Source: an uncultured Ectothiorhodospiraceae bacterium
GTDB lineage: Bacteria > Pseudomonadota > Gammaproteobacteria > UBA6429 > Thiohalophilaceae
Length of the DNA: 64,000 nucleotides
Direction: 5' to 3'
Assembly: GCA_947258695.1 (NCBI GenBank)
Contig: CAMYJG010000001.1
Location: 1 to 64,000 of the forward strand
The translations under genes were made by a program, and so were the position numbers. This document shows, in pieces, positions 49,022 to 56,379 of this stretch; the stretch's first letter is position 1, and each line of letters opens with the position of its first letter. Below the pieces are notes generated by a model. The model ran no database searches. It was not told the origin of the DNA and saw nothing but the letters and a program-made list of their open reading frames with translations.

Positions 49022-49753
49022 ATGCGACAAATCGTACTCGATACTGAAACAACGGGGCTTGAACCACGTTTAGGTCACCGCATTATTGAAATTGGTTGTG
49101 TTGAAGTTATTGATCGTCGGGTAACGGGCAACCGCTATCATCAGTATATTAACCCTGAACGTGAAATTGATGAAGGTGCCGAGGAAGTTCATGGTATCAG
49201 CACGGCATTTCTTGCAGACAAACCGGTATTTGCTGATATCGTTGATGATTTTTTAAGCTTCATTAAAGGGGCTGAGCTCGTTATACATAACGCACCGTTT
49301 GATGTTGGTTTTATTGATCATGAATTAGACCTTCTTAACCAGCCGCATAACCATGTCGAGAATATAAGCACGGTTCTTGATACGTTGGTATTAGCCAGGA
49401 AAATGCATCCTGGGCAAAAAAATAACCTCGATGCTCTATGTAAGCGTTATGACATAGATAACTCACAACGTGATTTACATGGCGCTCTACTTGATGCCGA
49501 AATATTAGCTGATACTTATCTTGCTATGACAGGCGGACAAACCATGTTGTCGCTCGGCGGTCAGGGTGATCATAGTGATTCAAATTTCTCAGGAACATCG
49601 CACAACAGTCCGCGTGCTGTTTCCGTAGAAACAGAAAAACTACGTGTAATATATGCCAAGGAAGATGAACTCGAGCTGCACCATCAGCGTTTAGCCGGAA
49701 TTAATGATGCCAGTAATGGAAATTGTGTCTGGTTAAAAGAAAAAGAACTATAA
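49022..49753 (+). CDS. dnaQ: DNA polymerase III epsilon subunit (proofreading exonuclease)
   Basis: 3'-5' exonuclease that proofreads for the replicative polymerase. The 243 residues show the DEDDh site: Asp and Glu in VLDTETTGLEP, Asp in IHNAPFDVGFID, and His/Asp in DLHGALLDAEILADTYLAM. A short C-terminal segment for binding the polymerase follows. The start MRQIVLDTET has an AGAAGAG ribosome site upstream. Confidence 0.97.
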   Translation: MRQIVLDTETTGLEPRLGHRIIEIGCVEVIDRRVTGNRYHQYINPEREIDEGAEEVHGISTAFLADKPVFADIVDDFLSFIKGAELVIHNAPFDVGFIDHELDLLNQPHNHVENISTVLDTLVLARKMHPGQKNNLDALCKRYDIDNSQRDLHGALLDAEILADTYLAMTGGQTMLSLGGQGDHSDSNFSGTSHNSPRAVSVETEKLRVIYAKEDELELHHQRLAGINDASNGNCVWLKEKEL

Positions 49754-49814
49754 AAAAACAGCAAAGGATAATAAATCTTTTAAATCAATAAGTTATATTA
49801 TATATAAAAATTAA

Positions 49815-49948
49815 AGTTCGATGCAGGGGTGTCGATAACTTAAATACATAAGGTTAATTGTTGTTCATTATGTATGACATAGTTAGGTAGTTTCCTCCCC
49901 TGCGCGAAGCGCATTTTTAAACCTCACAGTTTTGTGAGGTTTTTTTTA
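49815..49948 (+). ncRNA. Candidate structured small RNA after dnaQ
   Basis: This gap of about 330 bases (49754-50084) holds no gene but has nested complementarity: outer GCAGGGG (49823-49829) with CCCCTGC (49897-49903), and inner ATACATAA (49844-49851) with TTATGTAT (49868-49875). A tight TGCGC-GAA-GCGCA hairpin followed by TTTTT (49901-49918) and a second strong terminator hairpin come after. The tight hairpin and the outer stem compete for bases 49901-49903. This looks like a small RNA with tandem terminators, or a long structured dnaQ 3' end. It matches no RNA family I recognise. Confidence 0.45.
49918..49948 (+). terminator. Rho-independent terminator
   Basis: AAACCTCACA pairs with TGTGAGGTTT around GTTT, followed by further T residues. 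Confidence 0.9.
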
Positions 49949-50084
49949 TTCGTTAAAGTTTTAATTTTAACTGCCGTTAACTTAATCAGAATGTAATCAG
50001 TGACTTAATAGTTGTTCTTATAAGTGCTAGAGGCTATTCTTAGAAAAAAATAAATATGGCTAACAACATATCAAGGAATAAAGT

Positions 50085-50387
50085 ATGGCAATTTCAGGCA
50101 ATGTAAGTGATGGTGGCGATTCAGTATTAATTAATATCAGTGGTCGTTTTGACTTTAACGCGCATCATGATTTCCGGAATATTTATCGAAATGAAAAATC
50201 TAGTGCAACATACACAATTGACATGTCGGGTACTGAGTATATAGATAGTTCTGCTTTAGGTATGTTATTGCTATTACGTGAGCATGCAGGTAATGAAAGT
50301 GCTAAAATCACCATTAATGGTTGCAACGATGACATAAAGAAAATATTTGCTATTTCTAATTTTGAGAAACTGTTTACGATTACATAA
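50085..50387 (+). CDS. STAS-domain anti-sigma-factor antagonist-like protein
   Basis: A 100-residue single STAS domain of the SpoIIAA/RsbV kind: SVLINISGRFDFNAHHDFRNIY, then YTIDMSGTEYIDSSALGMLLLL with the conserved Asp-Ser-Ser phosphorylation region, and ISNFEKLFTI at the end. Such proteins act in partner-switching with anti-sigma kinases. No kinase or phosphatase partner is adjacent; the next gene is a GAF/HD-GYP protein 180 bases on, after a terminator. The true partner is unknown. Confidence 0.9.
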   Translation: MAISGNVSDGGDSVLINISGRFDFNAHHDFRNIYRNEKSSATYTIDMSGTEYIDSSALGMLLLLREHAGNESAKITINGCNDDIKKIFAISNFEKLFTIT

Positions 50388-50568: not shown

Positions 50569-52164
50569 GTGAATGGATTAACCGTAGTGAATGAAAAAGT
50601 AGACAGCGTATTTGAAAAAATTAACCTGCTTAATGAAGTAGGTATCGCACTGTCTGCGGAAAAAGATTTTTCCAGTCTGCTCGAGCAAATTCTAATTGGT
50701 GCAAAACAAATTACTAATGCGGATGGCGGAACGATATACTTGCTTAATAATGAGCAAAATCTTGAAATGGTCGTTGTTCAGACCGATTCTTTAAATATCC
50801 ACCTGGGTGGCAACACCGATAAACCGATTAAATTTAAACCCATAGAACTTTATAATAAAGATGGCTCACCCAATTTAAATATGGTGGTGACCCGTTCAGT
50901 CATAGAAGATAGACCTATCATTATTGATGATGCATATAATGCAAACGAGTATGATTTTTCCGGAACATATGAGTTCGATAAAAGTACAGGTTACCATTCT
51001 CAGTCATTTTTAGCGGTTCCTATGAAGAACCATGAAAATGATGTTATTGGTGTTTTGCAGTTAATTAATTCTAAAGATCCTGAATCAAATAAAACAATTC
51101 CTTTTACCAACGAAGATCAAAAGCTGGTTGAGTCTCTGGCCAGTCAGGCAGCCGTTGCTATCACAAACAAACAGCTTATCGATAGTCTTAACGAGCTGTT
51201 TAATTCGCTGGTTCAGTTAATAGCGACCGCGATTGATGAAAAATCACCATACACCAGCGGACACTGCAAACGTTTGCCTATAATAACCATGTTAATTGCA
51301 GATGCAGCGCATAAAGCTGACGAAGGCGAATTAAAAAATTTCATAATGAGTCATGCTGATCGCTATGAACTTGAAGTCGCAGCCTGGTTACATGACTGTG
51401 GAAAATTAACCACACCAGAAATGGTAATGGATAAGTCAACAAAACTTGAACGTGTTGTTGACCGTATTGAGTTAATCGATCTGCGGCTGGATATTATAAA
51501 ACGTGATATTGAAATTGAAAAATTATCAAACATCGCCAAAGGAGTTGCAGCTGTTCAGGCAACCAAAGAATATGAAACTAAGTTAAACGAAATTAATGAT
51601 ATTCGTGAATTTATTCGTCGACATAATAAGGGCGGTGAATTTATGCATGAAGATGATATCAATAGAATTAAACAATGCGCCAATTTAACCTGGACGGATA
51701 GCCAGGGTGTTACACAGCCTTTATTAAGTGAAGATGAAGTTAAAAACTTATGCATCGTTAAGGGAACATTAACTCAGGAAGAACGTGATATAATCAACAA
51801 CCATATTGTTGCAACAATCAAAATGCTGGATACTCTACCGTTCCCTAAACATCTGAAAAACGTACCAGAATATGCAGGCGGTCATCATGAGCGGGTTGAC
51901 GGAAAAGGTTTTCCAAAGGGGCTGGTGAAAGAACAAATGTCTGTGCAGGCAAGAATTATGGCAATCGCGGATATTTTTGAGGCATTGACTGCGCGTGATC
52001 GCCCCTATAAAGATCCTATGAAGTTATCCCAGGCTGTTTCAATTCTGAAAAAAATGAGTGAAACAGGGCATATTGATCCTGATTTATTTCAGGTATTTAT
52101 GCAGTACTCGGTTCATATCGATTATGCAAAATCTCACTTATTGCCTGAGCAAAACGATTTGTAA
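50569..52164 (+). CDS. GAF and HD-GYP domain cyclic di-GMP phosphodiesterase
   Basis: Cytoplasmic sensor-effector of 531 residues. An N-terminal GAF domain (about 30-205) has ADGGTIYLLNNEQNLEM, YHSQSFLAVPMKNHENDVIGVLQLINSKD and SLASQAAVAITN. The HD-GYP part begins near residue 215, with the HD pair H275-D276 in AAWLHDCGKLTTPEMV. HHERVDGKGFPKGL comes only after an inserted charged, helical stretch of about 140 residues (KLERVVDRIELIDLRLDIIK through LTQEERDIINNH). Late motifs MAIADIFEALTARDRPYK are normal. The start is taken as GTG at 50569; another GTG follows at 50587. Confidence 0.9.
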   Translation: MNGLTVVNEKVDSVFEKINLLNEVGIALSAEKDFSSLLEQILIGAKQITNADGGTIYLLNNEQNLEMVVVQTDSLNIHLGGNTDKPIKFKPIELYNKDGSPNLNMVVTRSVIEDRPIIIDDAYNANEYDFSGTYEFDKSTGYHSQSFLAVPMKNHENDVIGVLQLINSKDPESNKTIPFTNEDQKLVESLASQAAVAITNKQLIDSLNELFNSLVQLIATAIDEKSPYTSGHCKRLPIITMLIADAAHKADEGELKNFIMSHADRYELEVAAWLHDCGKLTTPEMVMDKSTKLERVVDRIELIDLRLDIIKRDIEIEKLSNIAKGVAAVQATKEYETKLNEINDIREFIRRHNKGGEFMHEDDINRIKQCANLTWTDSQGVTQPLLSEDEVKNLCIVKGTLTQEERDIINNHIVATIKMLDTLPFPKHLKNVPEYAGGHHERVDGKGFPKGLVKEQMSVQARIMAIADIFEALTARDRPYKDPMKLSQAVSILKKMSETGHIDPDLFQVFMQYSVHIDYAKSHLLPEQNDL

Positions 52165-56204: not shown

Positions 56205-56379
56205 ATTTCTAGACTAAGTAAATTCCCCTATAAAATCACATATATTTCAAAGGCATATGCTTAAGTTTTACTGCTGTCTGCCGACAATATAGCTACTTTA
56301 CTATTAAAAGCATGACTCATTCACTAAAGGCGTAAAAGTCATATTTACCAGGTATTTATATACCGTAGCGGAATTCCAG

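Follow-up and report, generated by a model that had tools for sequence, protein, structure and literature searches.

The element downstream of dnaQ in the analysed stretch of 64,000 nucleotides (hereafter the window) quite probably encodes a small RNA belonging to the late flagellar regulon, the predicted transcript of which would depend on FliA and act in trans by means of an anti-Shine-Dalgarno stretch (see Table 1). The comparison among genomes revealed a promoter-like element, a conserved anti-Shine-Dalgarno stretch, two covarying hairpins, a conserved neighbourhood and a single copy; judged from these sequence features the element is real, probably functional and not a switch, and probably represents a new family of FliA-linked small RNAs without a match in Rfam 15. 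According to the proposed mechanism, the sigma-28 (FliA) RNA polymerase would start at approximately position 49844 from TAAAGTTC-N11-GTCGATAA and stop at the terminator (49919-49947); the resulting RNA of approximately 104 nt would comprise a variable 5' part, the exposed stretch UUUCCUCCCC, the GCGC hairpin and the terminator hairpin with its U tail. The exposed stretch would most likely pair with the ribosome-binding sites of target mRNAs and thus block their translation after the late flagellar genes have been switched on. From these features we infer that the RNA depends on FliA in vivo, starts at this 5' end, pairs with mRNAs and represses them; the RNA is probably a discrete transcript with its end close to 49947.

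Table 1. Features of the small-RNA locus and its neighbours in the window.
Feature	Positions	Strand	Remarks
dnaQ	49022..49753	+	upstream neighbour, conserved with the RNA
Sigma-28-like promoter TAAAGTTC-N11-GTCGATAA	49812..49838	+	14/16 to consensus
5' arm of outer stem, GCAGGGG	49823..49829	+	inside promoter spacer; partner (3' arm CCCCTGC, 49897-49903) only in the genus of the window
Predicted small RNA	49844..49947	+	predicted start 6 bp past the -10 octamer (as in E. coli aer); predicted end at the T run
Inner stem-loop, ATACATAA (49844-49851) / TTATGTAT (49868-49875)	49844..49875	+	conserved within the genus but not between genera
GUUAGGU	49882..49888	+	identical in the genus rows; recurs in some other genera (by inspection)
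UUUCCUCCCC, anti-Shine-Dalgarno-like proposed seed	49891..49900	+	most conserved unpaired part
UGCGC-GAA-GCGCA hairpin, TGCGCGAAGCGCA	49901..49913	+	conserved with compensatory changes
Intrinsic terminator	49919..49947	+	10-pair stem (hairpin 49919-49942), then T run
Second sigma-28-like promoter TAAAGTTT-N11-GCCGTTAA	49954..49980	+	15/16, for STAS
STAS-domain gene (anti-sigma-factor-antagonist-like)	50085..50387	+	neighbour
GAF-HD-GYP gene	50569..52164	+	neighbour; searched protein read from 50587

The putative promoter reads in full TAAAGTTC-GATGCAGGGGT-GTCGATAA and was scored against the sigma-28/FliA consensus TAAAGTTT-n11-GCCGATAA as printed in the available part of PMC2859248; the same text places the aer start site 6 bp past the -10 octamer. 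Since GATGCAGGGGT is the spacer, the GCAGGGG arm of the outer stem falls inside the promoter and the inner stem begins at the inferred start. The alignments across genera keep TAAAGTT-N11/12-GCCGA, followed by a variable stretch, UUUCCUCCCC(C)UGCGCAG...GCGCA and the terminator. A sigma-28-like site of at least 12/16 was present in 31 of the 34 family loci (the remaining three score 10-11), with a spacer of 11 nt in 28 loci and of 12 nt in five, the count of 31 being partly circular as the covariance model R2 includes the promoter columns. An independent set of 17 loci, collected by a pattern of the 3' motif only (named uncultured Gammaproteobacteria, Chromatiales, Ectothiorhodospiraceae and one Proteobacteria MAG), exhibited an upstream site of at least 12/16 in 15 and of at least 13/16 in 12 cases, with shuffle rates of 3.76% and 0.32%, respectively; two loci fell below 12/16, and none of the 17 reached this score in the antisense control. 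Within the genus of the window, several of the -35 elements are weak (TAAAGAAG). Upstream of the -35 element, an AT-rich, AATAAGTTATA-like block (49760-49811) is similar among the genus members and may be a regulator site or a sigma-70 promoter.

Sites of at least 14/16 were found at three places in the window (49812, 49954 and 56261; 0.37 expected), two of them at this locus. The third (56261-56287, + strand, 14/16) lies 92 bp before a gene for a phosphonate-binding-type protein, after which comes a hybrid histidine kinase gene. The search of the own genome for the consensus with up to two mismatches returned 30 places versus eight for the reversed pattern; the genes behind several of these sites encode FlgN (with a small ORF between site and gene), CheW-response-regulator, HDOD, chemoreceptor-like dCache-HAMP and CsrA proteins. 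The site of csrA (L151 on contig C72) has two mismatches and lies 94 bp upstream of the gene, which suggests CsrA as a possible member of the FliA regulon in this genome. A FliA-type sigma factor was present in all 40 family genomes (above the curated cut-off in 38) and in all eight further genomes checked, so that its presence gives no contrast for a link with the small RNA. Two copies above the FliA_WhiG cut-off are shown by 26 of the 40 family genomes, and the own genome carries two FliA-type sigma factors (L113:2233-2961 on contig C1; L114:9765-10487 on contig C13), one of which sits in the order flhF-flhG-fliA-cheY, the other at the end of another chemotaxis cluster.

By DNA search the element was retrieved from six of the seven further genus genomes, in each case after dnaQ. 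The covariance model R1, made from the seven genus sequences, extended the set to the eighth genus member and to further genera of the family; at E 0.1 it matched 25 of the 40 genomes, some of these matches being chance terminators, and many of its matches outside the genus adjoin gltX or fall between dnaQ and gltX. Model R2, built over the genera of the family, matched 34 of the 40 family genomes and all 18 genera with one copy each, and gave no match in the remaining six genomes, one of which (G008) is 100% complete. Outside the family, R2 matched 11 of 369 genomes of the class; R3, built with these 11, matched 26 of the 369, among which are the own genome and two members of the family. As R2 and R3 contain the promoter, the extra-family matches are leads, and the weaker ones (the R3 loci of G083, G138, G161, G379, G133, G183 and G051) are doubtful. 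Among the 18 R3 loci listed, nine reach 12/16 and four match in the 3' part only. The locus L109 of G384, which is without the CTCC stretch, was set aside as a chance match. The good extra-family loci combine CUCCUCC or CCUCCCCC with the GCGC hairpin, the terminator and a sigma-28-like site, at varying positions (dnaQ, tsaC-hemB, hemF-tsaC; the hem and tsa names are partly by inspection). The search for phage relatives of the element gave no match.

The first-pass annotation had described nested stems followed by two terminator-like hairpins, and all of these are indeed present: The fold of positions 49800-49960 (-43.8 kcal/mol versus -27.25 +/- 3.5 in 200 dinucleotide shuffles; z -4.73) was not equalled by any shuffle, and the stems thus exceed chance. 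The covariation that the annotation proposed to look for was found across genera in the last two hairpins: In the GCGC hairpin and the terminator 93.0% of the cells are paired, with 39 both-side changes in 24 sequences and none of 500 shuffles as high; slid versions of this pairing all score far lower. Of the two hairpins only the second has the character of a terminator, as many relatives have non-T sequence (e.g. ACACACCCTTG) after the first.

The stretch UUUCCUCCCC is complementary to Shine-Dalgarno sequences and conserved across genera. In the minimum-energy fold of the predicted short RNA (from 49845) this seed is open and the inner stem absent; the mean unpairedness of the seed in the predicted short RNA is 0.64 in seven genus genomes and 0.77 in 26 others (G005, the contig of which ends inside the terminator, was left out of the accessibility folding). 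The motif GUUAGGU is possibly a second pairing region. Short seeds complementary to Shine-Dalgarno sequences by nature pair with many mRNAs. The search for GGGGGAGGAA-N-ATG, in which a perfect 10-base complement of the seed precedes ATG, yielded 25 matches in 40 genomes, approximately half of them the other strand of the small-RNA gene, and no recurrent target gene. A duplex scan over the ribosome-binding sites of 211 ORFs, a biased set from the window and from flagellar or FliA-site loci, ranked that of fliA third; the pairing over 21 fliA copies is mostly ordinary GGAGG pairing. The Shine-Dalgarno-like GGGGGAGGAA followed by ATG in several genera was also considered as the start of a coding gene on the minus strand and rejected, the frames being of 3-36 amino acids and unconserved; no ORF of at least 50 amino acids is listed in the element.

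The annotation had further proposed a switch-like arrangement, as the outer stem and the first hairpin would compete for TGC at 49901-49903. These three nucleotides are common to both stems in the window; the switch itself did not hold up. The 5' arm lies between the -35 and -10 elements, so that a transcript from the sigma-28-like promoter would exclude it, and in several genus relatives the outer stem stops at CAU before the GCGC hairpin; the overlap is unconserved, and mutually exclusive stems are not a conserved feature, since the outer stem is restricted to the genus. Quite unlikely, in our view, is therefore also a longer RNA, originating from dnaQ read-through or an upstream sigma-70 promoter, folding into the nested stems and serving as a structured RNA or as a switch. 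Besides the favorable folding energy, the nested helices are paired in 85.2% of the cells within the genus (seven rows), with a covariation score reached by one of 500 shuffles, a statistic that ignores relatedness; the interval between dnaQ and the element showed no terminator-like site, and 60 additional upstream nucleotides cut the openness of the seed from 0.64 to 0.36 in the seven genus genomes (from 0.77 to 0.70 in the 26 others). Over 16 rows across genera, however, the outer helix is paired in only 46.8% of the cells (the middle one in 68.8% and the innermost run in 50.5%); the nested set still beats the shuffles (covariation score 0/500), an excess attributed to the genus rows and to relatedness. 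The own-versus-cross pairing of the outer stem among eight genus members was borderline (p = 0.08 by permutation, 0.02 with shuffled spacers; the other-genera set comprised 24 genomes, with G021 and G022 left out). What the folding models retain of this alternative is residual support for an upstream arm that, in this genus, would mask the anti-Shine-Dalgarno sequence if a longer read-through transcript existed. The case illustrates that one apparent arm of an RNA stem can in fact be a promoter spacer.

An extended form of the small-RNA reading appears rather unlikely: The element might stand for an old and widespread gammaproteobacterial class of FliA-controlled anti-Shine-Dalgarno small RNAs that would constitute a translation brake tied to flagellar assembly, with fliA possibly among the targets. 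In the genus of the window, promoter choice would then decide on the seed, masked by the outer stem in the long dnaQ read-through RNA and exposed in the short RNA started by FliA.

FliA-dependent small RNAs as such are already known from E. coli and C. jejuni (available parts of PMC10578931 and PMC11187230). On the main reading, a single conserved, free-standing FliA-linked small RNA in 18 of 18 family genera, with related elements in other gammaproteobacterial families, would provide the flagellar checkpoint with an output of general reach at the post-transcriptional level.

The Rfam 15 search of the window stretch gave no family at gathering score, nor did the element in the relatives at permissive E-values, in agreement with the annotation of an unassigned RNA. 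The best weak matches were anti-hemB (RF02837; 21.8 bits in the window and 21.4-29 bits in relatives, gathering score 49.5), the PyrR binding site (RF00515; 24.9 bits and E 1.1 in the window, cut-off 54 bits) and the Betaproteobacteria toxic small RNA (RF02278; unlisted for the window at E 5, 24.6-26.6 bits in relatives, gathering score 50). That the element is a divergent member of RF02837 or RF02278 is very unlikely, although it shares the C-rich anti-Shine-Dalgarno stretch and two hairpins with them: All scores remain below gathering, and anti-hemB, which resembles the element in its CCUCCC stretch, hairpin and terminator, differs in that the anti-Shine-Dalgarno sequence (CCUCCCU) is placed in the loop of a CCCGC/GCGGG hairpin, a feature absent in the window. 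The promoter-like element differs as well: Upstream of 30 anti-hemB loci, where the best sigma-28 score is 8-12, the sequence is often GAACTTT...GTC, which in many of these loci (L177-L206) we take to resemble an extracytoplasmic-sigma promoter. The proximity of the element to hemB in G386 and G122 had suggested a link with anti-hemB by synteny, which was rejected in view of promoter and structure. Some genomes carry close anti-hemB copies in a row.

Several described small RNAs share single traits with the element. The sigma-28-dependent UhpU, MotR, FliX and FlgO of E. coli are likewise FliA-controlled and tied to flagellar late genes; as far as the accessible text of PMC10578931 goes, they are UTR-derived and conserved among some Enterobacteriaceae, in contrast to the free-standing gene next to dnaQ, which is also marked off from them by its C-rich anti-Shine-Dalgarno stretch. 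The likeness to CJnc170/FlmR of Campylobacter jejuni, a small RNA of another phylum that affects flagella, consists in the FliA dependence and is drawn from its description only (excerpt of PMC11187230). For the Burkholderia double-hairpin RNAs, C-rich stretches are predicted to act on ribosome-binding sites: According to the part of PMC5688073 at hand, ncS27 and its relatives (RF02278), as well as Neisseria NmsR as cited there, have two hairpins and an unpaired CU-rich stretch complementary to ribosome-binding sites. The ncS27 RNAs, however, occur in three to five copies per genome versus one for the element, the latter scores below the RF02278 gathering score, and that part of the source gives no sigma-28 link for them. 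In the accessible portions of the literature on small RNAs that are linked to FliA, located at dnaQ or equipped with a CU-rich stretch, no description of the element was found.

That the element is merely the transcription terminator of dnaQ with chance stems is highly improbable: Its location is indeed the 3' region of rnhA-dnaQ, and a good terminator closes it, but the anti-Shine-Dalgarno stretch and the promoter-like element are conserved at fixed spacing, and homologues occur away from dnaQ (among the 34 family loci, analysed with short flanks, dnaQ is near 17, gltX alone near six, and neither in 11). That the element serves the STAS/HD-GYP operon as a cis-acting leader or riboswitch is barely tenable: Its position upstream of STAS in matching orientation and the terminator in between speak for it, but the RNA is retained in G006 (dnaQ-RNA-gltX, with STAS and HD-GYP missing) and elsewhere beside gltX, MCP or hem genes, and STAS has a separate sigma-28-like site past the terminator. 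In the six analysed genus genomes with STAS this separate site (11-15/16) is located 6-10 nt past the terminator; it has decayed to 10/16 in G006, and the post-terminator site mostly scores 8-11 where gltX follows the RNA. The downstream gene differs across the genomes (STAS, gltX, MCP or others). The gene order in G022 is dnaQ-RNA-MCP-STAS, followed by a response regulator with SpoIIE and HATPase domains; the STAS and response-regulator/SpoIIE genes resemble the HsbA/HsbR pair of Pseudomonas, which acts on FlgM according to the available text of PMC5085249.
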